Assembly: GCA_021836865.1 (NCBI GenBank)
Contig: JAKBHH010000011.1
Location: 1-58,844 of the forward strand
Direction: 5' to 3'
DNA from: Acidobacteriota bacterium
GTDB taxonomy: Bacteria; Acidobacteriota; Terriglobia; Terriglobales; Acidobacteriaceae
Length of the DNA stretch: 58,844 nt
This document shows, piece by piece, positions 4,071-31,006 of this stretch. The translations under genes and the position numbers were made by a program. Within the stretch, counting starts at the first letter, position 1. The number at the start of each line of letters is the position of its first letter. The notes beneath the pieces are model-generated. The model ran no database searches and was not told where the DNA came from. It was given only the letters and a program-made list of their open reading frames with translations.

Positions 4071-5207
4071 TTACTCGGCGGGCAGATCCAGAAGCCGCTG
4101 GGAAAGACCCGCAATGTAACGGACGGCGTGAATCATCTCCTGATATTGGATACGCGTAGGCGCGATGACGGCAACGGTGCCGAGGTTGCCGCCGCCGAGG
4201 CGCGCTGGTGCACCGATGAGGACCAGGTCCTGCATGGCGGGCGAAGTTTCGTCGAGGCCGACCACCACGCGCACCTCCTGCTGGTGGCCGTCCACATAAG
4301 CGGTGAGGAGTTCGACGAGGCGCTGTTTGGCTTCGAGAGCGAGGAGCATCTGGCGGAGGCGTCCGCGATCGACCTCCGCGGCGATGAGGTTAGACATGCC
4401 GTCAACGTAGATGGGGGGCGAAATTTCGCCGGCCTCGAGAGCGCCCTTGCGACAGAGTTCCTCGATGGAAGTGAGCATCTGATGGTAGGCGGCGCGCTCG
4501 ATCTCCATGCGCCGGGCGATCTCCGCACGGATGCGCTCGATGAGCCAACCGCGAAAGTTTTCATTGAGATAGCGGGCGGCGGTCTCAAGATCGACGTGGG
4601 AGAGCTCGTGGTCGAGGGTGAGGACTCGGTCGAGGACTGCGCCGGCCTGGGTAACGAGCACTGCGAGCACGCGGCCCGCGGAAAGCCGGGAAAAGTGAAT
4701 GTGCTCAAGCACCTGCGGGGTAGCGGAGCCTGCGAGGGCAACGCCGAGGCCGCTGGAGATGAGCGCGAGCACATGCGAGGTGCGCTCGAGATATTCCGCG
4801 CTGGAGGCAACGCCGCTGAAGCTGTCTTCGATTTGATCGCGGCGGGCATCGCTGAGCGGCGAGGCATCCTTGAGCGCGGCAAACCGGCCGGACTGGGCGT
4901 CGGGGCGGGTAATCTGCTCGACATAGTAACGGAAGGCCGCGGCGGTAGGGACGCGCCCGGCGGAGGTGTGCGGCTGCTCCAGCAGGCCCGTCTCGGCCAG
5001 GGTGGCCATGACGTTGCGGATGGTGGCGGAGCTGAGTCCTTCCTTGTTGGCGAAATAGCGCGCAACTGCCTGAGAGGCAACAGGTTCGCCTGTGGCGATG
5101 TAGAGCTCGATGATGGCCGTCAAGACCAGCCGCTCTCGGGGACTGACGCGCACTTCGGGCATCTGTTCCGCTCCCCTTTGGCCGCCGGTCTTCCGGCTGG
5201 TGGGCAC
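4071..5207 (-). CDS. hrcA: Heat-inducible transcription repressor HrcA
   Basis: The 378-aa product has an N-terminal winged-helix domain (SPRERLVLTAIIELYIATGE, then SSATIRNVMATLAETGLL, then HTSAGRVPTAAAFRYYV), which is the HrcA signature, followed by the GAF-like inserted dimerisation domain. HrcA binds CIRCE operators and represses groE/dnaK-type operons, with GroEL supporting its folding. It is the first gene of an hrcA-grpE-dnaJ transcript, so autoregulation is expected. A later ATG (MPEVRVSPRE) could be the true start. The intact CIRCE palindrome expected upstream is not present; only a half-site is seen. Confidence 0.96.
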   Translation of the reverse strand: MPTSRKTGGQRGAEQMPEVRVSPRERLVLTAIIELYIATGEPVASQAVARYFANKEGLSSATIRNVMATLAETGLLEQPHTSAGRVPTAAAFRYYVEQITRPDAQSGRFAALKDASPLSDARRDQIEDSFSGVASSAEYLERTSHVLALISSGLGVALAGSATPQVLEHIHFSRLSAGRVLAVLVTQAGAVLDRVLTLDHELSHVDLETAARYLNENFRGWLIERIRAEIARRMEIERAAYHQMLTSIEELCRKGALEAGEISPPIYVDGMSNLIAAEVDRGRLRQMLLALEAKQRLVELLTAYVDGHQQEVRVVVGLDETSPAMQDLVLIGAPARLGGGNLGTVAVIAPTRIQYQEMIHAVRYIAGLSQRLLDLPAE

Positions 5208-5242
5208 CGTTTGCGACGCATTTTCGAGTGGCGCGCTAAGTA

Positions 5243-5251
5243 GAGTGCTAT
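5243..5251 (-). promoter_or_regulatory. CIRCE-like half-site
   Basis: Read on the minus strand, ATAGCACTC matches 8 of 9 bases of the CIRCE left arm (TTAGCACTC). The right arm GAGTGCTAA is absent at the required 9-nt spacing. A second, interrupted same-orientation copy (TTAGCGCGCCACTC) follows. The site lies between the promoter at 5290-5319 and the hrcA start. Confidence 0.4.
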
Positions 5252-5289
5252 CAGCCTCTTAAAGTAGGCTGGCGACCAAGCCTAATGTT

Positions 5290-5319
5290 ATTGTAGGAAG
5301 CGCAAATTGGCGCTGTCAA
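5290..5319 (-). promoter_or_regulatory. Sigma70-type promoter of hrcA-grpE-dnaJ
   Basis: On the minus strand, a perfect -35 TTGACA (5314-5319), an 18-nt spacer and TACAAT (5290-5295, 5 of 6) are visible. The predicted transcription start near 5283 leaves a leader of about 75 nt that contains the CIRCE-like half-site. The position in the gap between the 5356 gene and hrcA fits well. Confidence 0.75.
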
Positions 5320-5355
5320 GGCGCGGGCTACCGGGCTGGGGCGGAGCGCATCCGG

Positions 5356-6660
5356 TCAGGCAAGCCAGGCGGAGAGCTGGTGGCGCAGGGATTCAAGCGG
5401 CAAGGGGTCGGCCGAGCGGGTGAGGGCGAACTCGGGCGGGGCAATAACGTAGGCCTCAGCGATGCTGTCGGCCAGGCAGACGCATACGGTGGCGTGCTGG
5501 TACTCCTCGTAGCGGGTTGCCGCGAGCCAGATGTAGAGCGCCAGCATCTGCGCATCGAGGGAGCTGCCCTGTGGGTCATCGACGGACGGCAGCGGATTGA
5601 CCTGGTCAGGGTTGTCAAAGACGGCTACGCCGGTGAAGGGTTTGGGGCGGGGCCGCACGTCAAACTGGGCCACAAGCAGGGCGGGACGGGCACGCCGCAG
5701 CGCCTCGGAAGCGCCCCACTCCACAAAGGAATTGCCGAAGATGACGGCGCCATTGCCGGAGAGGAAAAGCGACCTGACAAACTCACGGACCGAAGGCTCT
5801 GCGACTTCAGGCGGGCACCAGGGCCGGACATCGACGCTGCGCAGGCGGTCATAGACGGCATCGGCATCGGCCAGATCCTTGCGCATGGAATTCATCTGCT
5901 GGGAAAATTTCTGGCGGTAGGCATCAAGCTCCTTGTAACCGAGGAGCGTGGGAGCAGGCTTGGCGGTGGAACCGGCCAGCCGCCGGAGGGCTGCCTGAGC
6001 AAGGCTGTCCCCGGCATCGATGATCCAGGCCTGCGCGGGCGCGGCCTCGGCATGTTGCTGCGATGCGCGGAGCACGCCGGTGGACGAGGCGGCGTCGTGG
6101 TCCGGCTCGCCGAGCAGCAGAAAGGCGAGCGAGCCGGAGGTACGCGCGGCATCGGGAATGCGAACCGGCTGGGCAAAGCCGATCCCCTGCCACCGGTCCC
6201 AGACGGTTGCCCGCTCCACGGGCAGATGTCCAGGAATGTCAAGCAGGACGAGCCGGTTGCGGGTTGCGGCTGCATTGGGCTGCGTCCTGATTGCATAGGC
6301 GTCCGCGGCGTTGAAGACGGCCTGGACCGCCTGACGCCACTGCTGGAAATAGGGCGAGCGGGCCAGCAGCGATGAGTTCTGAATGGTCTGCTCTGTGGTG
6401 GAAAACTGCCAGGTACGCACTCCCATTTTTTCTTCGAGTTGCACGACGTCGCTAAAGAGCGCGGCGGATTGAGCGGGAGTGAGGCTGGCAACGTAGAGAA
6501 GAAGCCGCTGCACGGACTTGTGCTCGTTGGGGAACAGAAAATCCCATTCGCGAAGCTGTTGCTGGACGAAGGGCAGAAAGGTGAGGGGCAGGCGCTCAAG
6601 CAGGCCGTCGGCGATGGCATGTTGAAGCTCGATCGGAAGGTCCGCGGGGATCTCAGGCAT
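5356..6660 (-). CDS. Unknown protein A1, second gene of duplicated module 1
   Basis: The 434-aa product starts at MPEIPADLP; this ATG overlaps the end of the upstream 6653-7894 gene by 8 nt. A signal peptide and membrane helices are not seen, so it is probably cytoplasmic. I do not recognise the family. It is clearly a paralogue of the 8000-9211 product: shared blocks include PLTFLPF near the N-terminus, a central WIIDAG, FVEWGASEALRRAR, and a C-terminal GSSLDAQMLALYIW. The repeated pairing with a Tat-exported phosphatase-fold protein suggests a role in its maturation, folding or regulation; that is inference. It is the last gene of the TonB-receptor arm, and the heat-shock promoter lies just beyond its stop. 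Confidence 0.8.
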   Translation of the reverse strand: MPEIPADLPIELQHAIADGLLERLPLTFLPFVQQQLREWDFLFPNEHKSVQRLLLYVASLTPAQSAALFSDVVQLEEKMGVRTWQFSTTEQTIQNSSLLARSPYFQQWRQAVQAVFNAADAYAIRTQPNAAATRNRLVLLDIPGHLPVERATVWDRWQGIGFAQPVRIPDAARTSGSLAFLLLGEPDHDAASSTGVLRASQQHAEAAPAQAWIIDAGDSLAQAALRRLAGSTAKPAPTLLGYKELDAYRQKFSQQMNSMRKDLADADAVYDRLRSVDVRPWCPPEVAEPSVREFVRSLFLSGNGAVIFGNSFVEWGASEALRRARPALLVAQFDVRPRPKPFTGVAVFDNPDQVNPLPSVDDPQGSSLDAQMLALYIWLAATRYEEYQHATVCVCLADSIAEAYVIAPPEFALTRSADPLPLESLRHQLSAWLA

Positions 6661-7894
6661 GGAATTCTCCGAGGCGGACGCCCTGCGCATCGATCGGTCG
6701 GCATCCGAGCAGGCCGGCAAAAGTGGGACAAAGATCGACGTGGCGAATGGGTCTTTCAATCACCTGCGGCTTGTCGACTGCCGCGCCGAGGGCCATCATC
6801 CATGAGTCCCGCGTCGACTCTTCATTGGCGCGGTGGTTGAAGAAGCCGTTGGTGGATGATCCGTCAGGATCTCTGCCGAATTCCGGAAGGATGAACATGG
6901 TGGTCTTGCCGCGATACTCGGGATTCTGCTGGACCTCCTGCCAGAGCTGCCAGGCGAGACGGTCTATAGTGCGAATTCCGGCAAGGTGCATGGCGAACGA
7001 GCCAAAGTGCGCCGCCTCCACATCAGAAAAGGCGACGGTCAAGACAGACGGAGCGAACTTGCGCATGATCTCGCGCGTCATGTAGAAGGTGAGCTCGTCG
7101 CCGGAGGTGGGTCCATCATTGCGGACGAAGCTGGCGATTGCGGACTTGATGCTGCCCTGGACGCGCGGGTCGAGCTGATCGGAGGCGTCGAAGACATTCC
7201 ATCCGAGACCTTCATAATTGCTGCCTTCGAGGGCCGACTCGAGCTCGGCCTGAACCTTGGCGCGGTCTGCCATGCTGGCGGTCCTTCCGCCTCGCAGCGC
7301 TTCCTCGACGGCCATCAGCATAAGCTGCTTGGGGAAGACTACGTTTGCGCCGTAGGCCTCGCCGTATTGCGCGGAGGAGCTGGCGCCGATCTGGCTGGTG
7401 AGGGCCTTGTTGCTGGCGACCATCCAGGTTTCACTGCGGTGGGCGCCAAGGTCCTTGCGGAACTGCTCAAAGAGCGTGGGCGTGGTGGGCGCGAGCTTGC
7501 CCCAGTCATCCACGCGCTGCCAGTTGCCGGTGAGGATGCTGGCGATGGCGTTGAAGTGGGCGGTGACGCCCTCATTGCGTGCGTGGGGAAAGAAGAGCGC
7601 ATCGGGCAACAGATCGCGGGTGAGGTGGGGAATGTTCTGGACGCCCTGCGGGGCGAAGGTTTCTGCGCGGCGCACGCCTCCGATGATGACGACGATGATT
7701 TTATGACCTGAGCCGGGGGTGCTGGCGGCTTCCTGCTGGGCGCACAGTTGAGGGAGCATGGAACCGGCAACGAGAAGCCCCGCTGCACGCAGAAAGTTGC
7801 GCTTGCTGATGTCGACGAAGGCCTCAGGCGGCTCGACAAGTGCCGTGTCGTCGCGGGTTCGGTGAGAAGAATCAGTTTCCAAAGACAACCTCAC
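6653..7894 (-). CDS. Tat-exported alkaline-phosphatase-superfamily (DUF1501-like) protein B1
   Basis: The 413-aa product has a Tat-like signal with KRNFLRAAG at residues 31-39 and a hydrophobic stretch after it. The mature part follows the alkaline-phosphatase/sulfatase fold order: KIIVVIIGG near residue 65, GVRRAETF, an AHFNAIASILTG segment at the usual nucleophile strand, FSDVEAAHFG, then MFILPEFGRD with a downstream FNHR, and a C-terminal VDLCPTFAGLLG as in sulfatases. The first metal-ligand Asp of the superfamily is replaced by the GGx4ETF pattern typical of DUF1501-like proteins. The GTG start at 7894 has no strong ribosome binding site. It is a paralogue of the 9217-10380 product and is followed, with an 8-nt overlap, by A1. 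Confidence 0.8.
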   Translation of the reverse strand: MRLSLETDSSHRTRDDTALVEPPEAFVDISKRNFLRAAGLLVAGSMLPQLCAQQEAASTPGSGHKIIVVIIGGVRRAETFAPQGVQNIPHLTRDLLPDALFFPHARNEGVTAHFNAIASILTGNWQRVDDWGKLAPTTPTLFEQFRKDLGAHRSETWMVASNKALTSQIGASSSAQYGEAYGANVVFPKQLMLMAVEEALRGGRTASMADRAKVQAELESALEGSNYEGLGWNVFDASDQLDPRVQGSIKSAIASFVRNDGPTSGDELTFYMTREIMRKFAPSVLTVAFSDVEAAHFGSFAMHLAGIRTIDRLAWQLWQEVQQNPEYRGKTTMFILPEFGRDPDGSSTNGFFNHRANEESTRDSWMMALGAAVDKPQVIERPIRHVDLCPTFAGLLGCRPIDAQGVRLGEFHA

Positions 7895-7999
7895 TCAAGG
7901 TGTCCCTTGAGTCTTGCTGCGTAACGCATGGTGAAATCAAAGTTGCGTGGATTATAGGCGCAGAAAAAGAGTTTCATCAACGCCGCGGGACACGAGCCT

Positions 8000-9211
8000 T
8001 CAGGCGAGCGCAAGCTGGACGAGCTCGGCGAGGCTCGTGGTCGAACTGGATTGAACGCCGCGCGGCAGCGTGGGCCCGATGACAAGAGCCAGTGCATGGC
8101 CCTGAAACCAGGCCACGAATGCAGACTCCTGCGCGCCGGGAAGGCGCTGCTGGTTGATCCAGTGGTAATACGCGCCCATATCCGCATCAATCAAGGATCC
8201 GAGCGGGTCGAGTGACGGGTTGGGGTTCTGGTTGGACAGCATCTCGTTCATGGGGAGTTGGCGCTGGCGCGGGGCGAAGTTGACCATGAGCGTGAGCGCC
8301 TGGGCGCGCCGGAGGGCTTCGCGGGTGGCCCATTGCGCAAAGGTGGTGCTGAAGATCTGCGTGCCGGAGCCCTCGGTAAGCAGCTTGACCTGAAAGCGGC
8401 TAAGGACTGGATCTTCGGCGGGATCCATGCCGAGATCGGCAGGCGACATCTGGGCAAGGCGCGTGCGCAGCTCTTCCGGGCCCATGCCTGGACGTTGAAT
8501 CTGCTGCTGCATGAAGCTGAGGAGCGCGGACCGGACGGGCTGCAGACCGTGGTAGGAAAGACAGGTCACGGAAGGGTCGATATTGCCGCTGATTGCGCCG
8601 CCGTCAATATACCAGTGGGCGTATGGTTCAGGAACACTTCGGGCTCGGGACTGGACGGAATCGAGCAACTGGGCGAGACCATTCTCTGCCTTGACCTGGG
8701 TGAATGTGGTTCCATGCGGGCGGAGATTGCGAAACAGCGGGGCGCTGTAGTCTGCCACATCCTGCCCGATGACGACGATGCCAAGCCGCCGGAGGGGCAA
8801 GTGTTCAGGAGGCCGGGTGGCCTGCAGCCGCTCACCATATTCGGTGGCCGCTTTGCGGAAATTGTCTAACTGATGTGTGGACCAAAGATAGGCGGACTGC
8901 TGCTCGACGAACTGCGCCGGCTGATTGACCCAATCGAACTCTGCCAGCTTGGGCGAGATGGAGATGCCCGAGAAAGCCTGAAACCAGTCGCTGATTTCTG
9001 CGGGGGAGAGACGGCTCAGACAGGCCAGCTCGCCGTCGATGAAGGCACGCTCCGCAGGGAACTTGAAATCGTAGTCGCTGATTTCACGGAGCATGCTGGG
9101 GAGAAAGCTGAGGGGTAGCTGGCGGAAGAGATCCAGGTGCGCGACGGCCGTCTGCCTGGCCTGGGCGGGATAGGCGGCAAACTGCACGGCCTGGAGATCC
9201 TTTGGCTGCAT
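8000..9211 (-). CDS. Unknown protein A2, second gene of duplicated module 2
   Basis: The 403-aa product begins at ATG 9211, five nt after the stop of the DUF1501-like gene 9217-10380, so the two are probably co-translated. No signal peptide or transmembrane segment is visible. The family is not recognised. It is homologous to A1 over its whole length (PLSFLPSML, WYIDGGAI, FAQWATREALRRAQ, GSLIDADMGAYYHW, VIGP), but identity looks low to moderate, so the duplication is old. Conserved Trp, Arg and Asp positions in the ALRRA and DxxMxxxYxW blocks could mark a functional site. The next gene downstream, B1, starts 105 nt later. Confidence 0.8.
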   Translation of the reverse strand: MQPKDLQAVQFAAYPAQARQTAVAHLDLFRQLPLSFLPSMLREISDYDFKFPAERAFIDGELACLSRLSPAEISDWFQAFSGISISPKLAEFDWVNQPAQFVEQQSAYLWSTHQLDNFRKAATEYGERLQATRPPEHLPLRRLGIVVIGQDVADYSAPLFRNLRPHGTTFTQVKAENGLAQLLDSVQSRARSVPEPYAHWYIDGGAISGNIDPSVTCLSYHGLQPVRSALLSFMQQQIQRPGMGPEELRTRLAQMSPADLGMDPAEDPVLSRFQVKLLTEGSGTQIFSTTFAQWATREALRRAQALTLMVNFAPRQRQLPMNEMLSNQNPNPSLDPLGSLIDADMGAYYHWINQQRLPGAQESAFVAWFQGHALALVIGPTLPRGVQSSSTTSLAELVQLALA

Positions 9212-9216
9212 GGCGG

Positions 9217-10380
9217 TTACAACAACTCCTGGATCGGGTGGCCGGAGGACTGGACGGGATGGAAGCCCATGATGGCACCGAGGCTGGGGACAAGATCAAC
9301 GGACTGCATGGGCGAGTCAAAGACCATGCCCTGTCGCACGCCGGCTCCGAGGGCGATCATCCATGTGGTGCGGCTGGCGATATCACCCGTGCGATGGTGC
9401 TGGAAGCCGTTGCCGCCCGCATCGTAGTCAGAGTCTCTGCCGAAATCCGGGAGGATGAACATGGTGGTGTTGCCGGCGTACTCGGGATTGGCTTCGACCG
9501 CTTTCCAGAGTTCGAGGCAGAGACGGTCTGTGCGCCGGATGCCATCGATGTAAAGGGAGTATGCACCGGAGTGCGCGATATCGATGTCGTGCATGGTGAT
9601 CCAGAGCAGACTCGGCGCCTCCTGCTGCATGAGGCGCTTGGCGATGTAGACGGAAAGCTCGTCGGGACTGGACAGGGTGCGCGCATGGGCGGTGAAGTCA
9701 TCTACGGAGAGGCGCAGAACCTGATCGAGCTGGCGCAGTTCGAATTCGCTTCCGCCGAGCGGCGGCGTATAGAGAGGATTCTCGTAGTTATCGCGCAGCA
9801 GGTGATCGAAGTCCCGCGACGAGCCGGAGCTGGCCGCGGTGAGCAGATGCTTGGGGAGGATGACCGCGGCACCGAGTCCCTGGCCATAGGACCGGCAATC
9901 GCTCTCGCCGATGCGATTGAAGCCGTTGCTCGGGGCAACGACCCAGGCATCAGAGGCCGGACGGTGAAGATCTTTGCGGAAGTACTCAAAGATGGTGGGG
10001 TGCTCCGGCGGGACTGCGGAGAAGTTATTCAGCGTTTCGTAGGTTCCGGTGGTGAGGCTGGCCGTGGCAACATAGTGCCCGAGGATTCCCTGGTTTGTGA
10101 CGTGCGTAAAGAAGCTGGACTGGGGAATAAGTTCGCTGAGCAGATGGGGGATATTTTCCTGGCCCTCGGGCGCGAAGGTTTCCTGATCGCGCGCGCCGCC
10201 GCCGAAGGTAATCACGATGATCTTGCGTTTTTTGCGCGCGCTCTCTGCGCGCATGAGGGGACTGGCACCGAGGAAGGCGCCGCCGACTGTCAGGTGCGCG
10301 GCGTCCCTGAGAAAATCGCGCCTGGTTCGGCTTAAACCGAGAGCTGGATCAAAGGGGTTCAGCGCAGCATCCTCCATCAT
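9217..10380 (-). CDS. Tat-exported alkaline-phosphatase-superfamily (DUF1501-like) protein B2
   Basis: The product is about 387 aa; the ATG at 10380 was chosen, with a TTG at 10389 also possible. A canonical Tat motif SRTRRDFLRDAA lies at about residues 17-28 before a hydrophobic stretch. Superfamily landmarks are IIVITFGGGARDQETF (Glu67 in the DUF1501-type position), GHYVATASLTTG, ITMHDIDIAHSG, MFILPDFGRD with a following FQHHR, and VDLVPSLGAIMG. The Asp/His pairs expected to hold the second metal are present, but the first Asp is not. It belongs to the same operon as the upstream TPR gene (27-nt gap) and A2 (5-nt gap). A hydrolase acting on phosphate or sulfate esters is plausible but unproven. 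Confidence 0.82.
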   Translation of the reverse strand: MMEDAALNPFDPALGLSRTRRDFLRDAAHLTVGGAFLGASPLMRAESARKKRKIIVITFGGGARDQETFAPEGQENIPHLLSELIPQSSFFTHVTNQGILGHYVATASLTTGTYETLNNFSAVPPEHPTIFEYFRKDLHRPASDAWVVAPSNGFNRIGESDCRSYGQGLGAAVILPKHLLTAASSGSSRDFDHLLRDNYENPLYTPPLGGSEFELRQLDQVLRLSVDDFTAHARTLSSPDELSVYIAKRLMQQEAPSLLWITMHDIDIAHSGAYSLYIDGIRRTDRLCLELWKAVEANPEYAGNTTMFILPDFGRDSDYDAGGNGFQHHRTGDIASRTTWMIALGAGVRQGMVFDSPMQSVDLVPSLGAIMGFHPVQSSGHPIQELL

Positions 10381-10407: not shown

Positions 10408-11838
10408 TCATGGCTTGGTTGGTTCGGGATTCCTGGCCGTGTAGACGAACTGTTTCACTTCGGCCCGTTCCTTGTCGATCTCGGCGAGGTGGTCGGCGCG
10501 GAGTTTCTGGTAGGTCGCGAACTCCTGCTGCGCCTTTTCGCGTTGTCCTACGTGGACGTAGTCGGTTCCGAGACGGTAGTGTGCGTCGGAAATGTTGGGG
10601 TCCAAAGCGAGGGCGCGCTCATATTCAGGAACTGACTTCTCATACTGATGCTGGTCTGCATAGAGGTCGCCAAGCTGCACGTGGGCCTGGGGAAAGGATG
10701 GATTCAACGCGATGGACTTTTGCAGAAGCGCCTCGATAGCGGGGATGTCCACTGTACCGCTTTGCGAGCGCTTGGCTTTCCAGAGGCTGAGGGCATAGTA
10801 GTACTGTGCGAGGGAGTCGTCCGGCTTGAGCTGGGCATAGCGCTGGAACCGCGCAGTCACTTCATCGGCCTGGGTTGGCGAGCTGTCATAGGCTTTGGAC
10901 AGGAAGTAGTAGCATCGCGCGTCGGCCGGGGCAAGATCGGCTGCGGTGAGCAGGGCCTTGACGGCCTCGTCGTATTTGCCGCGCGAGTAGAGAGCGAGCC
11001 CCAGGCCGATGAACAGCCGCGGCGACTTTGGATAACGAAGCGTTGCCTGCTGAAAGATCGTGATCGCCGGCTCGTAGGTTCTGTGGAGAAGCATTTCGCT
11101 GCCCCAGTCAAACAGGTTGTCGTCGCTGGGATCCATGTGAGCCGCGGTCTCATATTCATTGGCGGCATCCACAAACTTGCCATCCTTCTCATCAATCTGG
11201 GCCAGCAGGTTGTGCAGCTCTCCGGTGTTGTTCTTCTGCAGGGTATGCGCGGCAACCTCGCGCGCCCCTGCCAGCTTGCCCAACTGAAAGTCCGCCATTG
11301 TGAGGTCGTAGCTGTTTCCGTAAGCATCAGGATTGATGTGCCAGGCGTTCTCCAAAAACGGCTGCGCATCCTGAATTCTGCCGGACTGGACATAGAACTC
11401 GCCGAGGTCATGGTTGGCCTCGTAGTCCTGGGGAGCAAGCTGCTGGGCCTTGAGGAATTGCTCTCCCGCCAGGGCGTGCTTCCCGGTACGCAACAGGAAA
11501 GCTCCGAGATTGGTTCTGGCGTCCGCCGCATCCGGCTTGAGTTGCACGGCAAGTTTGAGTTGGTCGAGGGCTTTTTCGTCCTGCGAGAGCGAAGCATAGA
11601 CCATCCCCAGCAGTTCGTGCACCACGTAACTTCTGGAGGCATACGGCAGCACATTTTCCAGCAGGCCCGCGGCCTGCTCAAAGCGGCCTGCGTTATAGTC
11701 AGCGACTGCAGACTGATACTGGGCGTCGAGTTGCGCATTGGAAAGCTGCTGGGCGGAAAGTCGCCCGGAGGCGACGCAGGGGAGGAACGCGAGCAGAAGA
11801 GGAAAGACGATACGGCGGAGATGAGACCCTTTGCTCAC
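10408..11838 (-). CDS. Secreted TPR-repeat protein
   Basis: The frame is open to 11934, but the GTG at 11838 is the better start: GGAGG sits 6 nt upstream and the frame then opens with a signal peptide (MSKGSHLRRIVFPLLLAFLP, cleavage near SAQQ). The remaining region, about 450 aa, is almost entirely tetratricopeptide repeats (for example AVQLKPDAADARTNLGAFL). It ends in a charged tail, AEIDKERAEVKQFVYT. The C-terminal half is paralogous to the 26529-28337 product. It is probably a periplasmic or outer-membrane-associated scaffold for the TonB receptor arm. A strong hairpin separates it from the receptor gene. Confidence 0.88.
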   Translation of the reverse strand: MSKGSHLRRIVFPLLLAFLPCVASGRLSAQQLSNAQLDAQYQSAVADYNAGRFEQAAGLLENVLPYASRSYVVHELLGMVYASLSQDEKALDQLKLAVQLKPDAADARTNLGAFLLRTGKHALAGEQFLKAQQLAPQDYEANHDLGEFYVQSGRIQDAQPFLENAWHINPDAYGNSYDLTMADFQLGKLAGAREVAAHTLQKNNTGELHNLLAQIDEKDGKFVDAANEYETAAHMDPSDDNLFDWGSEMLLHRTYEPAITIFQQATLRYPKSPRLFIGLGLALYSRGKYDEAVKALLTAADLAPADARCYYFLSKAYDSSPTQADEVTARFQRYAQLKPDDSLAQYYYALSLWKAKRSQSGTVDIPAIEALLQKSIALNPSFPQAHVQLGDLYADQHQYEKSVPEYERALALDPNISDAHYRLGTDYVHVGQREKAQQEFATYQKLRADHLAEIDKERAEVKQFVYTARNPEPTKP

Positions 11839-11879
11839 CGACTGCCTCCGAGTGAACCGCGTGAGCAATGCGCTACGCA

Positions 11880-11932
11880 GAAGAACACCCCGGGAGAAAG
11901 CCAGGTGAACCTGGCCTTCCCGGGGTGTCTTC
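11880..11932 (-). terminator. Long intra-operon hairpin after the TonB receptor gene
   Basis: Two arms of about 24-27 nt are nearly complementary. The core ACACCCCGGGA pairs with TCCCGGGGTGT, extended by GAAG/CTTC outside and GCCAGGT/ACCTGGC inside, around a tiny loop. No U tract follows, so it may be a partial terminator, processing site or 3' stabiliser that lowers expression of the downstream genes. It starts 8 nt after the receptor stop codon. Confidence 0.7.
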
Positions 11933-11940
11933 ATTCTAGC

Positions 11941-14900
11941 CTAGTAGTACAGCTTCAGAGAAAACTGGATCTGCCGCGGATCGAAGGGAGCATCGCGCGT
12001 GGAGCCAATCTCGCCGAAGTTCGGGTTGGTGAAGTTGCCGGAGTTCGGGATGGCTACCACGCCATTGCCCCCGAAGTTCGGCGCATTGAAGTTCGGATGG
12101 TTGAAGATGTTGAAGATCTCGGTGCGGAACTGCATCGAGAAACGATCATTGAGCTGGAAGGCCTTGAACATCGAGAAGTCCATACGATGGAAGCCCGGAG
12201 TGGATGTCTGGCCCGGGGCATCACCCAGGATGGCGCTGCCTGTCAGTTGGACGCAACCGGCGGGCGTGTTGGGAATGGGACCGTTCGGCCCGAGCACGCA
12301 AGGCTGCTGGAAGGCATTGGGATTGCCAAGCCAGACCGGGTAGTTGGTGCCGCCCACGTTCTTGGTGTGAATCCCGAGCTTTTGACTCTGTCCCGGAACC
12401 TTGACGGCATTGCAACCGGTTCCGGAGGTTGTTCCAGTCGGGCAGCCGAAGTTGAGCGGCTGACCGCCCTGGAGGGTTACGATCCAGTTTGCGGACCAGC
12501 CACCAACGATTGCGTCCATCAGCCGTCCTGAGTTGAGGAAGCGCTGATTCTTGCCGAGGGGTAGTGCATATCCACCGCTGAAGTGCAGAACCTGCCGGAT
12601 GTCGAAGTCCGCCAGAGCCCAGTCGAACTTGGGGCCGAGGCCCGGCACGTCTGGAGCTCGATAACCGCCTGTACTGCCACCATTCAGCAGATCGCCTGCG
12701 TCGGACATCGTCTTCGAGAAGGTATATGCCAACAGGAATGTAAGCCCATTGGAGTACGACTGTTGGAGGAGGGTTTGCAGGCCGTGGTACTGACTGCTAC
12801 CCACCGTGGTCTGGTAACTCGAACCGTGCGAGAAGTCAGGGAACGGAACCTCGTTGTTCGGATAGGTATCTGATGTGGAATGCCCTGCGGGAAGCAGCAC
12901 GCTCACGTTGTTGGTACCGACACCTGCCTGCAGATTCTGGCCATCCGTAAACACATACGCGGCCTGTGCGGACAAGGTGCGCGTGAGGGCGTACTGGAAG
13001 GTGAGGTTCGCGCTGTACGTGCGGGGTGTCTGGTAGTCGAACTGAAGTCCCTGCAAGCCCAGGCCGGAAGCATTGACCTGGGTGGGCGTGAACTGGATGC
13101 AGGAGAAGCCCGACTCGAAGGTCGCGGTTCCACCTGGCCCGCCCGTTGCGCAACCGGCGAACGGCGTGTTGAGGCTTACAGGGGCCACCTCACTGTCCGC
13201 ACCTTGCGCAACAAAGTCAAAGTTATAGACGAAGGGATAGTTCTCTCCAATGTTCGGTCCATATCCCTGATTCTCAAACGAGTTGTAGAAAATCCCGAAG
13301 CCACCGCGAGCGACTAACTTCGGAGTGATTTCATAGGAGAATCCTACGCGAGGGGCAAAGTTCGCCTTTTGCGTCTGGACCAGGCCTTGCCCATAACTGT
13401 TCGTACTGTCAAGGGCAATTCCATCCTTTGCCAGCAGGGTCGTAAAACTTGTGGACAAATCTCGGACATCTTTTCCGGTTGCCGGGATGAGGTACTCCGG
13501 TTTGTTGTTGGGCGCTCCGCTGGGCACAAAGTTGGCCTGGCCGCCGTTGGTTTCGTTGATGGGTCCAAAGTAATCCCAGCGCAAGCCAAGGTTCAGCGTC
13601 AGCTTGGGGGTCACCTTGTAGTCGTCCTGGAAGTAGGAGGCGAAGTACATCTTCTGGTCGTAAGTCTTGTTGATGTTCGACGCATAGACCTGATCGGAGC
13701 CGCCGGAATAGTTAATGCCGCCGGGAACCGTCGCCGCCTCAGGTGGCAGCAGGAACTGCGCCATCCCGTTGGAGTTGTTGTTGTTGTTCGGGATATCAGC
13801 AAAAGAACCGTTGTAGTCAAACTGGCCTCTCGACCACGCTGGCTGCAACGTCGAGAACTTTACGTTTTGATACTCGATACCCATCTTGAAGCTGTGATTG
13901 CCGTAAATCTTGGTGAAGTCGTCCGTGACCTGGATGGTCTGGCTGACCTCGTCGGAGGGTAGGAAGTTGTTGCTTCCCAGTGTGGCAAGGCCGCCGAAGC
14001 CGAACGCGGGCAAGCCGCCATTCTCATTCACCTGCGGAATTCCCTGGATGCCGAACTGCGCCGGGATGCCGCTTTGTCCGCCAACCGGTCCAAAGCGCGT
14101 GGTGTGCAAGTGGGTGAAGCCAAGACGCGCCTGGTTGATGGTGGTCGAGTTGAACGTGTGGGTATAGCCGGCAACATCCTGCGCCGATTTTGCCGTCTGA
14201 ATGCCCTCTTGGAACGAGCCGCCGTCCGCAATGCCGCCGAAGGGACCGGGGATGTACTGCGGGTCATCGTTATAGCTGAACCGGGCAAATATCTGATCCT
14301 GCTGCCGCGGGTTGATGTCGAACCGTATATCGAATGTGTTCTTGTGTTCGTAAAGATTGGGGCTGGCGTTAAAGTTACCCGTCAGGGCCTGGCTGGTCGG
14401 GTTCGGGAAGAGATTGAGCAGTTTCACAGCGTTGGGGTCAATTCTTCCGGCCGGAAGTTGATTCAGCCCAGGGCAGTTCGCGATCGAAACGGTGGTCTGC
14501 CCGGCCGAGCAGCCAAAGGCATCGCGAACATAGTCGGTCCTGACTGCAGTCAGGCCGGAAACGGGATCGACCGAGCCGGCTGTGACTGCACGCGTGGTGG
14601 CTGGATCAAGAATGACGCCGGCCGGAATGCTGCGACCGAGGGCATCTGTTCTGGGCGAAGCGGAGGAGTTGGCGGAAAGGATATCCGTGAGGTTGGTGTA
14701 TCCGCTGTTGCGCTCGTTCATTGTTGGGACCGTGAGGATGCCGGTCGTGTTGCCCTGGACACGGCGATAACCTTCATAGTCGCCGAAGAAGAATATCTTG
14801 TTCTTGATGATCGGCCCGCCGGCGGAAGCGCCGAACTGATTCAGGCGCAACGGAGCATTAATTTGAGTAGGCGTGTTCTTCTCAAACCAGTCCTTGGCGT

Positions 14901-15732
14901 CCAGAACGTTGTTGCGGAAAAACTCCCATGCCGCACCGTGAAGGCTGTTGGTGCCGGATTTGATGGTTGCATTCATCACCGCGCCAGCTGAGCGTCCCAG
15001 TTCCGCGCTGAAGTCCGCGGTCTGCACCTTGAACTCCTGAATGGCGTCGACGGGGGGCAGAACAACGAAGTTGGTTCCGTTGAGGAAGTCGACCGCGTTG
15101 GAGTTGTTGTCAATGCCGTCGAGCAGGTAGTTATTCTGCGCTGGACGAAGGCCGTTGGCGGAGAACGCGCCGCTGGCGGCGTTGCCGCGGGTATCTGCCT
15201 GGGGCGTCTGCATGCCGGCGCCGAGCTGCGCGAGGAAGGTGAAGTTGCGTCCGTTCAAGGGCAGCGCATTCACTTCCTGCGAGCCGATCACCTGGCCGAC
15301 CGAGGCTTCTTCCGTCTGGAGCAGGGGCGGCGCGGTGCTGACCTCGACGGTCTCACTGGCTTGTCCAAGCTTGAGCTGCACGTTGACCTGCAGGACCTGC
15401 GCGACCTGCAGCGTCAGGTTTTTCTGGGTCGTGGTGGCAAAGCCGGGAGCGCTTACGGTCACTGTGTAATGGCCAATGCGGAGCGGCGAGAAGGTGTAAC
15501 TGCCGCTGGCGCTGGACTTTGTTTCAAGCGTTAAGCCGACGTCGGTGTTTTTCAGAGTGACCTGTGCGTTGGGCACAACCGCGCCTGAGGTATCGAGCAC
15601 GGTACCTGTGATGGCTCCTTCGTCTACCTGGCCAAAAGCGCTTCTTCCCTGCAACAGGACGAAGCACAAGCATGCAAGGGCTGCGCCAACTGCCACGCGC
15701 ACCCAGCGATTTGTGTTGCGATCACGGCTCAT
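11941..15732 (-). CDS. Oar-type TonB-dependent receptor with carboxypeptidase regulatory-like domain
   Basis: Outer-membrane receptor/channel of 1263 aa. The ATG at 15732 (MSRDRNTN) has GGAGG 7 nt upstream; the frame itself extends to 15768. A signal peptide ends near SAFGQ. Next comes a carboxypeptidase-regulatory-like beta-sandwich (about residues 30-115, GAITGTVLDTSGAVVPNA and GSYTFSPLRIGHYTVTV), a plug domain (VNALPLNGRNFTFLAQLG, NYLLDGIDNN), and a large beta barrel ending in FSLKLYY, an aromatic C-terminus suited to BAM recognition. This architecture is highly expanded in Acidobacteriota and usually imports oligomers or peptides. It heads the minus-strand arm of the locus. The substrate cannot be read from the sequence. 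Confidence 0.93.
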   Translation of the reverse strand: MSRDRNTNRWVRVAVGAALACLCFVLLQGRSAFGQVDEGAITGTVLDTSGAVVPNAQVTLKNTDVGLTLETKSSASGSYTFSPLRIGHYTVTVSAPGFATTTQKNLTLQVAQVLQVNVQLKLGQASETVEVSTAPPLLQTEEASVGQVIGSQEVNALPLNGRNFTFLAQLGAGMQTPQADTRGNAASGAFSANGLRPAQNNYLLDGIDNNSNAVDFLNGTNFVVLPPVDAIQEFKVQTADFSAELGRSAGAVMNATIKSGTNSLHGAAWEFFRNNVLDAKDWFEKNTPTQINAPLRLNQFGASAGGPIIKNKIFFFGDYEGYRRVQGNTTGILTVPTMNERNSGYTNLTDILSANSSASPRTDALGRSIPAGVILDPATTRAVTAGSVDPVSGLTAVRTDYVRDAFGCSAGQTTVSIANCPGLNQLPAGRIDPNAVKLLNLFPNPTSQALTGNFNASPNLYEHKNTFDIRFDINPRQQDQIFARFSYNDDPQYIPGPFGGIADGGSFQEGIQTAKSAQDVAGYTHTFNSTTINQARLGFTHLHTTRFGPVGGQSGIPAQFGIQGIPQVNENGGLPAFGFGGLATLGSNNFLPSDEVSQTIQVTDDFTKIYGNHSFKMGIEYQNVKFSTLQPAWSRGQFDYNGSFADIPNNNNNSNGMAQFLLPPEAATVPGGINYSGGSDQVYASNINKTYDQKMYFASYFQDDYKVTPKLTLNLGLRWDYFGPINETNGGQANFVPSGAPNNKPEYLIPATGKDVRDLSTSFTTLLAKDGIALDSTNSYGQGLVQTQKANFAPRVGFSYEITPKLVARGGFGIFYNSFENQGYGPNIGENYPFVYNFDFVAQGADSEVAPVSLNTPFAGCATGGPGGTATFESGFSCIQFTPTQVNASGLGLQGLQFDYQTPRTYSANLTFQYALTRTLSAQAAYVFTDGQNLQAGVGTNNVSVLLPAGHSTSDTYPNNEVPFPDFSHGSSYQTTVGSSQYHGLQTLLQQSYSNGLTFLLAYTFSKTMSDAGDLLNGGSTGGYRAPDVPGLGPKFDWALADFDIRQVLHFSGGYALPLGKNQRFLNSGRLMDAIVGGWSANWIVTLQGGQPLNFGCPTGTTSGTGCNAVKVPGQSQKLGIHTKNVGGTNYPVWLGNPNAFQQPCVLGPNGPIPNTPAGCVQLTGSAILGDAPGQTSTPGFHRMDFSMFKAFQLNDRFSMQFRTEIFNIFNHPNFNAPNFGGNGVVAIPNSGNFTNPNFGEIGSTRDAPFDPRQIQFSLKLYY

Positions 15733-15858
15733 TCCGAAACCTCCGTCACTTAACTTTCTTCGCATCACTTTTGGGACGATTTTCTTTGGATCGAGCCCGC
15801 CCCTGGAGCAGCCGGCAACTTGTAAACCTTTTCATACACGTTGCTCGACTTCGACGGA

Positions 15859-16266: not shown

Positions 16267-19200
16267 ATGCTTAGGCAGCGCGATCAAAACGCACTCATTT
16301 CCCGGCGAACTTTCCTGAAGGGCCTGGGGCTCACCCCGGTAGTTCTTCGTGCGGCCCCGCTGATGGGTCTCCATGGGGCAGTTGGCGCGCAGGCAAGGGC
16401 AGCAACGAGCGAGATGCCCATGGCGCTGGCGGATGCGCGGTACACGCCTCACTACCCGACGGAATCGCCTCTGGCCGATCTGCTGCGCCTCGTGCCTCCG
16501 GGTTCGGACCAATACATCACAGAGCGATACGCGTTTGAAATCGAGAAGATCTTCGCGCGGTGGAGCGAGGATTTGCGGGGGTCCGTGCGCGATCACGCAG
16601 CGCCGCTGGAGTGGATGGAAGCCTCGCTCGATGCCACGTTCCTGGGCGGAGGGAACGAGCGGAAGATCCGCTCCACGCCCGGAATCGACGTTTTTATCCG
16701 GACGTTTGCGCCCGTAACTGGGGTGAGCCGCGAGCGTTTTGCGGAGGGACTGAGGGAGTGGCTGAAAGAGCTGGAGACCATCAAGACCGCTGAGTTCGAA
16801 ATCTACGCGATTGAGGCGGTCGAGGGCGCGGCGTTGAGCGTTCACACGCGGATTCGATATGACCTGGTGGCGAAACGACAGGATGGCAAGCTGGAGGAGC
16901 GGGTTGGCTCATGGCTCATCCACTGGAAAAACAGCGCTGCACAAGGCTGGAAGGCCCTGCGGTGGGAAGTGGATGCAGAGACGGTCTCGATGCTGGTGGG
17001 CCAGGCATTTATCGATGTGACCGAGAGCGCGCTGGGCAGGACGGAGTCATACAGAAACCAGCTGCTCCACGGCGCCGACTACTGGCGCACCACGCTGGAT
17101 GGCGCAGTCGGCATGGACCTCTACTGCAATAACGGCCTGGCGATGGGCGACTATGACAATGACGGATTTGACGATCTGTATGTGTGCCAGGCGGCGGGGC
17201 TGCCGAACCGGCTGTATCACAATCGCGGAGACGGCACGTTTGAAGACGTGACAGAGCGGGCTGGAGTGGGCGTTCTGGACAATACCGCCTCTGCGCTATT
17301 CGCTGACTTTGACAATCGCGGCCTGCAGGACCTGCTGGTGGTGTGCGGGACAGGACCGCTGCTGTTTCGCAATCAGGGAGATGGCACCTTCCTGCTGAAG
17401 CGCGACGCGTTCAAGTTCAAGCGGCCTCCGCAGGGCACCTTCACGCACGCGGCGATTGCGGACTACGATCGCGACGGGCGCGTGGATATCTACTTCTGCC
17501 TCTACATGTATTACCTGGGCCTCGATCAGTATCACTATCCCATTCCCTACTACGACGCGCGCAACGGGCCGCCCAACAGCCTGTTCCATAACGAAGGGAA
17601 CGGCACATTTGTGGAGATGACTGAGGCCGCGGGGCTTGATGTGGAGAACAACCGGTACAGTTTCTCCTGCGCGTGGGGCGATGCCGACGGCAACGGATTG
17701 CCAGACCTGTTTGTCTCCAATGACTTTGGCACTTCGCAGCTCTACCGCAACAATGGGAACGGAACATTCACCGATGTTTCCGCGCAGGCGGGTGTGGAGG
17801 GCGTAGGGGCGGGAATGGCCTGCTGCTGGGGCGATTTTGACAATGACGGCCGCCAGGATGCGTACGTGCCGAGCATGTGGGAAGCGGCGGGGCAGCGGGT
17901 TGCCGGGCAGCCCCAGTTTCACGCGCATGCGCCTGCGCAAATTCGGGAGCTGTATCAGCGTCATGCGCGCGGCAATGCACTGTATCGAAACCGGGGAGAC
18001 GGGACATTCAGCAACGTCGGCCGGGCGGCGGGCGTGGAGATGGGCCGCTGGTCGTGGTCCTCTGACTTCCTGGACTTCGATCACGACGGCTACGCCGATC
18101 TCTATGTCGCAAACGGCTACATTACGGGCGCCAATCCTGAGGATCTGGCAAGCTTTTTCTGGCGGCAGGTGGTGGCGCGATCCTCAGAGGACACAACGCC
18201 CGCACTGGCCTACGAGCGCGGATGGAACGCCATTAACGAGCTGGTTCGCTCTGACTACTCGTGGCATGGAAGAGCAAGAAATGTTCTGTTCGCCAATAAT
18301 CACGACGGCACCTTCTCAGAGATTTCCGGCCCTTCCGGACTGGATTTTCTTGAGGACAGCCGATCTTTTGCGCTGGCTGATCTGGACCATGACGGCCGAC
18401 TCGAAGTGGTCCTCAAGAATCGCAACGCTCCGCAACTGCGCGTTGTGCATAACGCGATGGAGCAGGTTGGAAAGTCAATCTGTTTTCGGTTGCGAGGCAG
18501 AAACAGCAATCGGGATGCGATCGGGGCATCCGTGACGGTGGAGGCGGGCGAACTGCGCCAGACCAAATATCTGCAGGCAGGAACCGGCTTTCTGGCGCAA
18601 CACACCAAGGAGCTTTTTTTCGGCGTAGGCACACACGAAGGATCGATTCGCGCAACGGTGCGCTGGCCTAACGGAAGCTCGCAGGTCTTTGAGAATCTGG
18701 CTGCAAACCAGCGGATTGCGATTGAAGAGGGCTCGCAGGCCGTGCAAGCCAAGCCGTTCGCAAAGACACCTGCCCCTTTCGAGAAGCCGTCTCTTGCGCA
18801 AACGGGTGACTCGCTGCCCACCACGGTGGGGACATGGCTCATTCAGCCGCTGAAGGCTCCGGAGTTCTCCCTGCCGGACCTTGCTGGGACATCGCACACC
18901 CTGAAAGCCCTGCGGGGAAGCTTCGTGCTGCTCACCTTCTGGTCTATGAACGCTCCCGTAAGCCTGGAGCAGTTGCAATCGCTGCGCGGAGAGAGGCCTG
19001 CGTTTGAGCGCGGCGGCGTGCATGTCTTGGCGGTCAACGTGGACGAACAGCCCGACGCAGACGCCGCGCGGACGTATGCCGCACAGAAACACTTCTCTTT
19101 CTCCGTGCTGTTTGCGACGACGGAGATGGCAGGCATCTACAACATCATCTATGAGCATCTGTTCGACCGCCGCAGAAATCTCGGCCTTCCGACTTCCTTT

Positions 19201-20103
19201 CTCATCGACGGCGAGGGCATGATCGTGAGGGTCTATCAGGGCCTCAACGATCCCGCGCAGATGGCTGCGGATGTGCGACAAGTGCCCACGAGCCAGGAAG
19301 CGCGCATGGCGAAGGCGCTTCCCTTTCGCGGAATGCTTGTGCAGGATGCCTTTCAGCGCAACGACTTCACGTATGGCGTAGCCATGTTTCAGCATGGATA
19401 CCTGGAGCAGGCGTGGGACTCGTTTCAACAGGTGATCGCCGCCAAACCCAATGACGCCGACGCATACTATAACCTTGGAACGCTGAGCCTGCGCAGGAAC
19501 AATCTGGAGGCTGCCGCCGGGTATCTGCAGAAGACGGTGGCGCTGAAGCCCGATTATCCGGAGGCGTGGAATAATCTTGGCATGATGGCGGCACAGCAGG
19601 GACGGGCGGATGAGGCCATCTCGGACTTTGAGCGCTCACTGCAATTGAGGCCGGGCTACGCCATTGCACTGCTCAATCTGGGGAATGTGTACCGGAGGAT
19701 GAAGCAGTTTGATAAAGCTGCGACTTACCTGGACCAAGCCATGCGTGAACAGCCCGACGATCCGGAGGTCAGCTATAGCCAGGGCATGCTTTACGCGCAG
19801 CAAGACCAGTTAGAGAAAGCGGAGGAGTTTCTGACCAGGGCCATCAGTCTGCGGCCTAACTATCCCGAGGCGCTTAACAATCTCGGAGTGGTCTACGTTC
19901 GCGAGCAGAACTATCCGAAAGCGATGGATCAGTTTCAAGCGGGAATCAAGGTGGCGCCGAGTTATGGGCAGTCGTATCTGAACCTGGCCCGGCTTGACCT
20001 GATGCTGAATGAAAAAGAAAAGGCACGTTCGGTTCTCGAACAGATGCTGCAAGTACTGCCCGAGAATGCCGAAGCGAAGCGGAATCTGGAAATGCTACGA
20101 TGA
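16267..20103 (+). CDS. Tat-exported FG-GAP/ASPIC-UnbV protein fused to a redoxin-like domain and TPR repeats
   Basis: A 1278-aa multidomain exported protein. ISRRTFLKG at residues 11-19 is a canonical Tat signal. Residues of about 50-270 form an unassigned domain. FG-GAP/VCBS repeats follow (about 285-718) with Ca-binding DxDxDGxxD motifs such as DYDNDGFDDLYV, DYDRDGRVDIYF and DFDHDGYADLYV. An ASPIC/UnbV domain follows at about 736-825 (NSNRDAIGASV, ATVRWPNGSS). Residues of about 860-1010 look like a thioredoxin/AhpC-TSA domain (APEFSLPDLAG, FVLLTFWSMNAPVS, LPTSFLIDGEG), but the usual CxxC is replaced by MNAP, so thiol chemistry is unlikely. TPRs fill about 1034-1278. It overlaps the next gene by 4 nt (ATGA). 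Confidence 0.88.
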   Translation: MLRQRDQNALISRRTFLKGLGLTPVVLRAAPLMGLHGAVGAQARAATSEMPMALADARYTPHYPTESPLADLLRLVPPGSDQYITERYAFEIEKIFARWSEDLRGSVRDHAAPLEWMEASLDATFLGGGNERKIRSTPGIDVFIRTFAPVTGVSRERFAEGLREWLKELETIKTAEFEIYAIEAVEGAALSVHTRIRYDLVAKRQDGKLEERVGSWLIHWKNSAAQGWKALRWEVDAETVSMLVGQAFIDVTESALGRTESYRNQLLHGADYWRTTLDGAVGMDLYCNNGLAMGDYDNDGFDDLYVCQAAGLPNRLYHNRGDGTFEDVTERAGVGVLDNTASALFADFDNRGLQDLLVVCGTGPLLFRNQGDGTFLLKRDAFKFKRPPQGTFTHAAIADYDRDGRVDIYFCLYMYYLGLDQYHYPIPYYDARNGPPNSLFHNEGNGTFVEMTEAAGLDVENNRYSFSCAWGDADGNGLPDLFVSNDFGTSQLYRNNGNGTFTDVSAQAGVEGVGAGMACCWGDFDNDGRQDAYVPSMWEAAGQRVAGQPQFHAHAPAQIRELYQRHARGNALYRNRGDGTFSNVGRAAGVEMGRWSWSSDFLDFDHDGYADLYVANGYITGANPEDLASFFWRQVVARSSEDTTPALAYERGWNAINELVRSDYSWHGRARNVLFANNHDGTFSEISGPSGLDFLEDSRSFALADLDHDGRLEVVLKNRNAPQLRVVHNAMEQVGKSICFRLRGRNSNRDAIGASVTVEAGELRQTKYLQAGTGFLAQHTKELFFGVGTHEGSIRATVRWPNGSSQVFENLAANQRIAIEEGSQAVQAKPFAKTPAPFEKPSLAQTGDSLPTTVGTWLIQPLKAPEFSLPDLAGTSHTLKALRGSFVLLTFWSMNAPVSLEQLQSLRGERPAFERGGVHVLAVNVDEQPDADAARTYAAQKHFSFSVLFATTEMAGIYNIIYEHLFDRRRNLGLPTSFLIDGEGMIVRVYQGLNDPAQMAADVRQVPTSQEARMAKALPFRGMLVQDAFQRNDFTYGVAMFQHGYLEQAWDSFQQVIAAKPNDADAYYNLGTLSLRRNNLEAAAGYLQKTVALKPDYPEAWNNLGMMAAQQGRADEAISDFERSLQLRPGYAIALLNLGNVYRRMKQFDKAATYLDQAMREQPDDPEVSYSQGMLYAQQDQLEKAEEFLTRAISLRPNYPEALNNLGVVYVREQNYPKAMDQFQAGIKVAPSYGQSYLNLARLDLMLNEKEKARSVLEQMLQVLPENAEAKRNLEMLR

Positions 20104-24577: not shown

Positions 24578-24614
24578 AGCGCCGTGCGCTGTGAAGCGGA
24601 CGCGGAGCCGCAAC

Positions 24615-24644
24615 TTTCCAAGCTCCGGTCGCGCTCTCTATAAT
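24615..24644 (+). promoter_or_regulatory. Internal promoter before the last FG-GAP/ASPIC gene
   Basis: TTTCCA (24615-24620), an 18-nt spacer and a perfect TATAAT (24639-24644). The ATG at 24656 begins only 12 nt after the -10, so a transcript would have a leader of about 5 nt or be leaderless. Confidence 0.55.
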
Positions 24645-24655
24645 TCCGTCATCCC

Positions 24656-30790: not shown

Positions 30791-30828
30791 CGGAAACTCC
30801 TTTCGGCATTTCAGAAGTTCGGTATCAC

Positions 30829-30848
30829 GAATGAAAACGAATTCATTC
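30829..30848. promoter_or_regulatory. Candidate operator upstream of the GH2 gene
   Basis: A perfect inverted repeat GAATGAA-N6-TTCATTC lies 38 nt before the GH2 start. An AT-rich stretch (TATATT on the minus strand near 30856-30861) just upstream could be a -10. The arrangement fits a repressor site near the transcription start; the regulator is not encoded nearby. Confidence 0.4.
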
Positions 30849-31006
30849 CGGATGAAATATATCAGGGCGACGTTTCCTTGAGCGCGCCGACGGCCGCTAT
30901 GCGAGGGCAACGGCACACGCCTCAGGCAAGCCGGGCTGGGAGTGAAAGCCGCGCCGCCTGGTCGGCGACGGGCTCCAGGCAGGCCACAGACCCTCGAGTC
31001 CCGCAG

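Follow-up and report, generated by a model that had tools for sequence, protein, structure and literature searches.

The window analysed here, a 58,844-nt stretch of an Acidobacteriota bacterium (Acidobacteriaceae; GenBank assembly GCA_021836865.1, contig JAKBHH010000011.1, positions 1 to 58,844), carries two consecutive, head-to-tail copies of a gene pair in which a protein with a twin-arginine translocation (Tat)-type start (B) is followed by a signal-less protein (A). All four open reading frames (ORFs), B2 (9217–10380), A2 (8000–9211), B1 (6653–7894; GTG start) and A1 (5356–6660), are intact on the minus strand, with B preceding A in each pair, a 5-nt gap between B2 and A2 and an 8-nt overlap between B1 and A1, just as described in an initial annotation made from the sequence alone. 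That annotation gave B a Tat signal and a DUF1501/alkaline phosphatase (AP)-like fold, left A unplaced, and proposed that the two proteins work together, possibly with A as a cytosolic maturation factor for Tat export of B. Computational comparison finds that A and B are homologous, share a fold, have lost metal ligands and are inherited together, and that A is most likely a degenerate paralogue of B. A1 and B1 are referred to as type 1, A2 and B2 as type 2.

The B part (residues 65–419) of a B1-A1 chain modelled from L140, the corresponding four-gene locus of a close relative, aligned with PafA (5tj3; Z 27.0, 3.1 Å, 302 residues aligned), then with SPAP, NPPs and sulfatases, and Foldseek with the B part of this combined model gave E values down to 3.5e-7. 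By sequence, canonical acidobacterial AP-family proteins are nearest (hhalign E 2.3e-24). An AP-superfamily fold can be assigned to B1 and, from the homologous B1 model, to B2. Alignment with ten acidobacterial AP-family proteins revealed three replacements in the active site, each present in 21/21 B rows: the first metal Asp (DG) is Gly, the putative nucleophilic Ser is His102 (10075–10077 in B2), and the His of DHG is F, L, M or C. The metal-ligand roles and the role of Ser as nucleophile are presumed from what is typical of the superfamily. Acidic residues at 265, 267 and 312 and His at 270 and 329 are retained, seen in B2 as D265-x-D-x-A-H270 (9571–9588; metal-1 type ligands), D312-F-G-R-D316 (9433–9447), which replaces canonical DHGR and includes an added, invariant D316, and His329 (9394–9396), an invariant His of metal-1 type; three His are invariant in the 21 rows. 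With ligands lost and the nucleophile replaced, B may bind a single metal, and catalysis by the standard AP mechanism is unlikely. The same replacements weaken the case for B as a plain phosphatase or sulfatase, and B marks an AP-fold family with catalytic residues replaced in all 21 aligned members.

The twin-arginine motif is RR in B2 (RRDFL within TRRDFL, residues 20–24; 10309–10323), where it is conserved in the B alignment, and KR in B1 (KRNFL within SKRNFL, residues 31–35; 7790–7804), the KR form occurring in 29/65 type-1 vs 1/32 type-2 B proteins. The Pfam TAT_signal model at E ≤1 matched 10/21 B and 0/21 A proteins, and an (R/K)R-x-hydrophobic pair is found in the first 45 residues of 20/21 B rows and 1/79 A rows (of the latter, 68 start at the BLAST match rather than at the start codon). 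A proteins encoded away from B have N-termini without a signal by eye. N-terminal hydropathy did not separate A from B, and pI and Cys content gave no useful difference between them. The AP fold and the Tat-type start of B in the initial description are thus borne out, with KR rather than RR in B1, while the DUF1501 label is not: window B1 and B2 have no Pfam match to DUF1501 at E ≤1. Among the aligned B proteins 4/21 matched it weakly (best E 0.0063), and hhalign of B against eight Pfam-confirmed DUF1501 proteins from A loci, several of them nearly alike, gave E 0.0015 over 96 columns.

A proteins have no Pfam or NCBIfam match above noise and one PDB sequence match, at E 0.37, and A as another known Tat partner was set aside on these results. 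An alignment of 79 rows (L128 was dropped for a stop codon and 11 more of 80 loci as near-duplicates or fragments) gave an AlphaFold model of A1 with a predicted local distance difference test score (pLDDT) of 91.5 and a predicted template modelling score (pTM) of 0.91, in which residues 1–130 are helical and the C-terminal domain is alpha/beta. VIA-align of this model places residues 133–434 in the AP superfamily, to which all 50 matches listed belong by title (Z 12.8–14.1), with 3b5q at the top (Z 14.1, 3.9 Å, 200 residues aligned). A profile of A also matched that of B directly (hhalign E 6.9e-7, 228 columns, probability 91.9; E 1.6e-7 to 2e-5 with other alignments), against E 0.17–0.93 for null controls (reversed profiles and molybdenum cofactor (MoCo), ASPIC, TPR and TonB-dependent receptor (TBDR) profiles). 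A is therefore neither unplaceable nor unrelated to B, as it had first seemed, and its fold is that of B rather than that of an unrelated enzyme. Its profile matches B (E 2e-5, 2.8e-6) better than canonical AP-family proteins (E 0.095, 0.022) or DUF1501 (E 0.1–0.45), which makes descent of A from a B-like gene the most likely origin.

No column of the A alignment occupied in ≥60% of the 79 rows reaches 30% His and, because no His is conserved, A looks like a pseudoenzyme, catalytically dead by loss of the metal-binding His/Asp set; for A2 this assignment comes from sequence and profile comparison. Invariant residues of A (A1 numbering) are P25, F43, E46, R249, G302, G304, F312, W315, R323, R336, D362, D369 and Y376. 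R336 opens a basic motif, R336-x-(K/R)-x-(K/R)-P-F (5635–5655), which in the profile comparison lies near the position of the D..H metal-1 ligands of B. Tat chaperones of the TorD/NarJ type (redox enzyme maturation proteins, REMPs) are all-helical, and the alpha/beta C-terminal domain rules out A as a member of that type.

A1 and A2 share 26% identity (E 5e-20) and B1 and B2 36% (E 9e-84). From 114 pairs, with ORFs of ≤300 aa (B) or ≤330 aa (A) excluded, removal of identical A C-termini left 97 non-redundant pairs, 65 B1-A1 and 32 B2-A2 and none mixed. Type 2 separates as a single split in the tree of B (support 0.992) and in that of A (0.958), so the duplication is real and, as the initial annotation had supposed, old. 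Distance matrices of A and B are correlated across the 97 pairs (r 0.97), but shared phylogeny alone would yield a high r, and type matching alone is taken as evidence. All 19 of a further 19 loci, from 14 genomes, are type-matched B2-A2 pairs. Confinement of type 2 to the family of the window was considered and dropped, since genome G434, listed under another family (f67), has a type-2 pair (locus L189, contig C73), for which transfer, contamination or an older origin of type 2 might each account. Several genomes (e.g. G282, G290, G338 and G370) have two type-2 pairs each, indicating that the pair was duplicated more than once; the genome of the window has no further copies at E ≤0.001. A diverges more quickly than B, with a median identity among type-1 proteins of 32% vs 46%. 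Decaying second pairs were seen in G213 (contig C4, near 383846–385948), where A and B are both broken, and in G386 (contig C2, near 1879317–1880514), where A is split.

Matches to A2 were found in 21/60 genomes of relatives (the genome of the window included) and matches to B2, many of them weak, in 37/199 genomes of the phylum. In a profile search of the same 396 genomes for both proteins, 31 have A, 31 have a strong B (E <1e-100) and 30 have both (Fisher p 9e-43). There are 38 A loci in these genomes (fragments merged), 37 of which directly follow a B, and genomes with two strong Bs also have two As, counting the split second A of G386; in G213 it is the whole second pair that is broken. 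A scan of GTDB contigs yielded 194 A-encoding stretches, 80 of which were taken into locus analysis, and all 80 carry Acidobacteriota names. The A profile matched 91 ORFs in them, fragments included: 80 follow directly after a same-strand B (a B fragment only in L127), two are N-joined to B (L158, L159), two are cut by a contig end and seven are without B. The in-frame joins in L158 and L159 were rejected as natural B-A fusions, which would have been proof of interaction, because each is a run of N. A search of plasmids found one partial A, from Granulicella tundricola, and weak, sulfatase-like B matches.

The seven loci where A has no neighbouring B (7/80) are all from metagenome-assembled genomes of Bryobacterales/Terriglobia, yet each of these genomes has exactly one A together with a single strong B at another site (truncated in one case by the end of a contig). 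A and B are ~2.5 Mb apart in G455, which is assembled as a single chromosome. The partnership thus appears to outlive linkage. Near-perfect co-occurrence, type matching and retention of both genes when unlinked together argue that A and B work together, as first proposed. All seven B-less loci (L114, L113, L116–L119 and L130) have, no more than ~5 kb from A on the opposite strand, a genuine DUF1501 gene (PF07394, E ≤2e-132; 4281–5648, minus strand, in L114).

In L140 the stop codon of B1 is in frame with A1 across a 23-codon gap, and reading this stop as a residue gives an 871-residue B1-A1 chain, which was folded on an alignment of 114 rows with B-only and A-only rows aligned to their own halves. 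The model has pLDDT 83.6 and pTM 0.82, with pLDDT <50 for linker residues 420–444. Two large domains of undefined relative position would be expected to give a pTM near 0.5, by estimate, so packing of A on B is predicted with some confidence. This supports a physical complex (heterodimer) of the two, which is judged likely.

The module is longer than the two-gene unit first described and extends upstream to a TPR protein gene (10408–11934, minus strand) and a gene for a TonB-type outer-membrane protein (OMP_b-brl_4, CarboxypepD_reg; 11941–15768, minus strand), both assigned by Pfam and recurring in other loci. Beyond these are divergent FG-GAP/UnbV_ASPIC-TPR, TPR and FG-GAP/UnbV_ASPIC genes (16267–24577, plus strand), which are also recurrent neighbours. 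Across 117 partly redundant A stretches, TonB-type receptor homologues are present in at least 78, TPR (loose matches) in at least 77, FG-GAP/UnbV_ASPIC in at least 58 and molybdopterin oxidoreductase in at least 26, counts that are minima as stretches stop at 20 kb or a contig end; the sets of loci used here overlap in part. The pair therefore belongs to a recurrent TonB/TPR/FG-GAP locus of Acidobacteriota. Four consecutive genes at 16267–26440 (plus strand) of the window are rich in FG-GAP/UnbV_ASPIC and TPR, the first with an AhpC/TSA (thioredoxin-like) domain between FG-GAP/UnbV_ASPIC and TPR, and genes of this kind also lie after A in other lineages. Near the FG-GAP genes there is a gene of glycoside hydrolase family 2 (28367–30916, minus strand), which hints at glycan use. 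In many type-1 loci outside the family of the window, the gene directly before B encodes a small molybdopterin oxidoreductase (PF00174) that has an RR motif close to the N-terminus (e.g. L107, 5140–5829), and this gene still precedes B in G454 and G455, the two examined of the seven genomes with unlinked genes. Downstream of the pairs the window has hrcA, and no CIRCE element with ≤3 mismatches was found in the window. The gap between A2 and B1 has a sigma-70-like site, TTGATG-18-TATAAT (10/12; 7951–7980, minus strand), one of 3 such sites in the region vs 2.4 expected, which could serve as a separate promoter for the B1-A1 pair.

The explanation favoured here, with confidence just short of even, is that A and B form a prozyme-like heterodimer that is assembled in the cytoplasm, exported on the Tat signal of B and active on behalf of this envelope locus. 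Its two AP-superfamily subunits would be ancient paralogues, one (B) keeping a Tat signal and a remodelled metal site and the other (A) having lost its signal along with the metal site and all conserved His, and bearing a helical N-terminal domain. Translation from adjacent genes would allow the two to fold and pair in the cytoplasm, the signal on B would carry both to the periplasm as a ‘hitchhiker’ substrate, and there A would support or activate B, the complex serving a locus with TonB-type receptor, TPR and FG-GAP/UnbV proteins. The old duplication of the whole pair would then have given types 1 and 2, each retaining its own partner. It is because the partner is a dead paralogue that a mechanism of paired subunits appears the best reading. 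Co-export of A with B stands at about an even chance, and activation of B by A in the periplasm is a more tentative part of the scheme. A further step, that a remodelled B (His for the nucleophile, second metal site lost) and a fully dead A with a conserved basic loop combine to make a single active or ligand-binding centre, absent from either protein alone, the two forming one Tat cargo with a single signal, seems unlikely on present evidence.

Several observations count against the heterodimer. The active site of B is itself non-canonical; genome G252 has an A remnant (partial, E 1.9e-70) without a strong B, and in G073, which has a distant B, no A was found in the 17 kb inspected or in a profile search of the genome. 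Assembly coupled to translation cannot be a requirement, as A and B are unlinked in seven genomes. For the fold and relationship of A, Foldseek with the A model was not significant (best E 0.063, phosphonoacetate hydrolase), and hhalign probabilities for A vs B are 77–94%, not near 100, with E values that apply to a single comparison. For the complex, only 16/114 rows of the co-fold alignment hold both proteins, two of them with partial B, the chains were tied by the read-through linker without a control fold or interface score, and AlphaFold 2 may falsely pack homologous domains.

The closest competitor, although rather unlikely, makes A a dedicated cytosolic chaperone or proofreader that mimics the dimer partner of B, keeps hold of B until B is correctly folded and metal-loaded and is then released, B being exported alone. 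It would account for the missing signal of A (in the TAT_signal search and in the unlinked A proteins alike) and sits well with co-inheritance, homology and predicted packing of A and B, but A, of roughly the same size as B, retains a full AP domain, beyond the needs of a chaperone, is unlike the all-helical Tat chaperones, and has all its invariant charged residues but one within the AP-like domain. Of the cytosolic Tat maturation factor initially suggested, the TorD/NarJ form is gone and a chaperone-like pseudoenzyme is what is left, with the same low probability. Less likely again, A could be a cytosolic protein of the same operon with a binding or sensing role of its own and no contact with B; its basic R-x-K-x-K-P-F site would then bind an anionic product formed by B and report on it. 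The invariant basic motif would suit this role, and AP-fold pseudo-hydrolase domains can be regulatory, as with LapC (YejM) (PMC7730581). However, a pTM of 0.82 for the linked chain speaks against such separation, and strict type matching (97/97 and 19/19) exceeds what a shared pathway needs. A reading in which B is a conventional secreted phosphatase or a DUF1501 protein, with A as an operon passenger without joint function, is very improbable, as B does have an AP fold but has its nucleophile and two metal ligands replaced in all 21 rows, and the genes co-occur far beyond chance (p 9e-43) and are both kept in the seven genomes where they are unlinked.

These results assign a fold and an origin to A, a family missed by the Pfam, NCBIfam and PDB sequence searches, and suggest a role for it that can be tested. 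If the heterodimer is correct, an enzyme/pseudoenzyme pair would be added to a well-studied hydrolase superfamily, and a Tat cargo would be made of two paralogues; the pair may thus represent a novel type of paired enzyme from soil acidobacteria. Among the titles and abstract openings of open-licence literature searched, no paper on a paired AP-fold protein and dead paralogue was found; the passages seen of a study on Solibacter describe paralogues with ASPIC/UnbV and contain nothing on the A/B pair (PMC3174227).

Members of the AP superfamily (PafA, SPAP, NPPs, S1 sulfatases and the acidobacterial ‘DG...S...DHG’ family) have the fold common to B and residues 133–434 of A, but B departs from their canonical metal ligands and Ser/Thr/Cys nucleophile, and A is without their metal His/Asp set. 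DUF1501 (PF07394) proteins are, like B, AP-like with Tat-type starts, and differ in that the window B proteins lie outside the reach of the Pfam model. The periplasmic domain of YejM/PbgA/LapC has an AP fold matched by A (6v8q; Z 13.7, 3.6 Å, 198 residues aligned), although this is a single inner-membrane protein for which, to our knowledge, no paralogous partner pair is known. LapC (YejM) is reported to be required for LpxC regulation, with an AP-fold domain called a pseudo-hydrolase (PMC7730581), while YejM is elsewhere called a metalloenzyme (PMC7576196). In the prozyme pairs of trypanosomatids, a dead paralogue activates its partner in AdoMetDC/prozyme and in DHS, where the other subunit is itself catalytically impaired (PMC3663545; PMC5201418). 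In AdoMetDC/prozyme and DHSc/DHSp, as with A, a dead paralogue is retained beside a second paralogue, but those pairs have another fold and are non-bacterial, whereas A and B are bacterial, B bears an export signal, and activation by A is proposed from comparison. HybOC and PaoABC are cofactor oxidoreductases with unrelated subunits, whereas the subunits of A/B are paralogous and co-export is as yet a prediction. What they have in common with A/B is the arrangement of one subunit with a signal and a signal-less partner, for which Tat hitchhiker export is established in HybOC and PaoABC, with the signal on one subunit only (PMC4273604).

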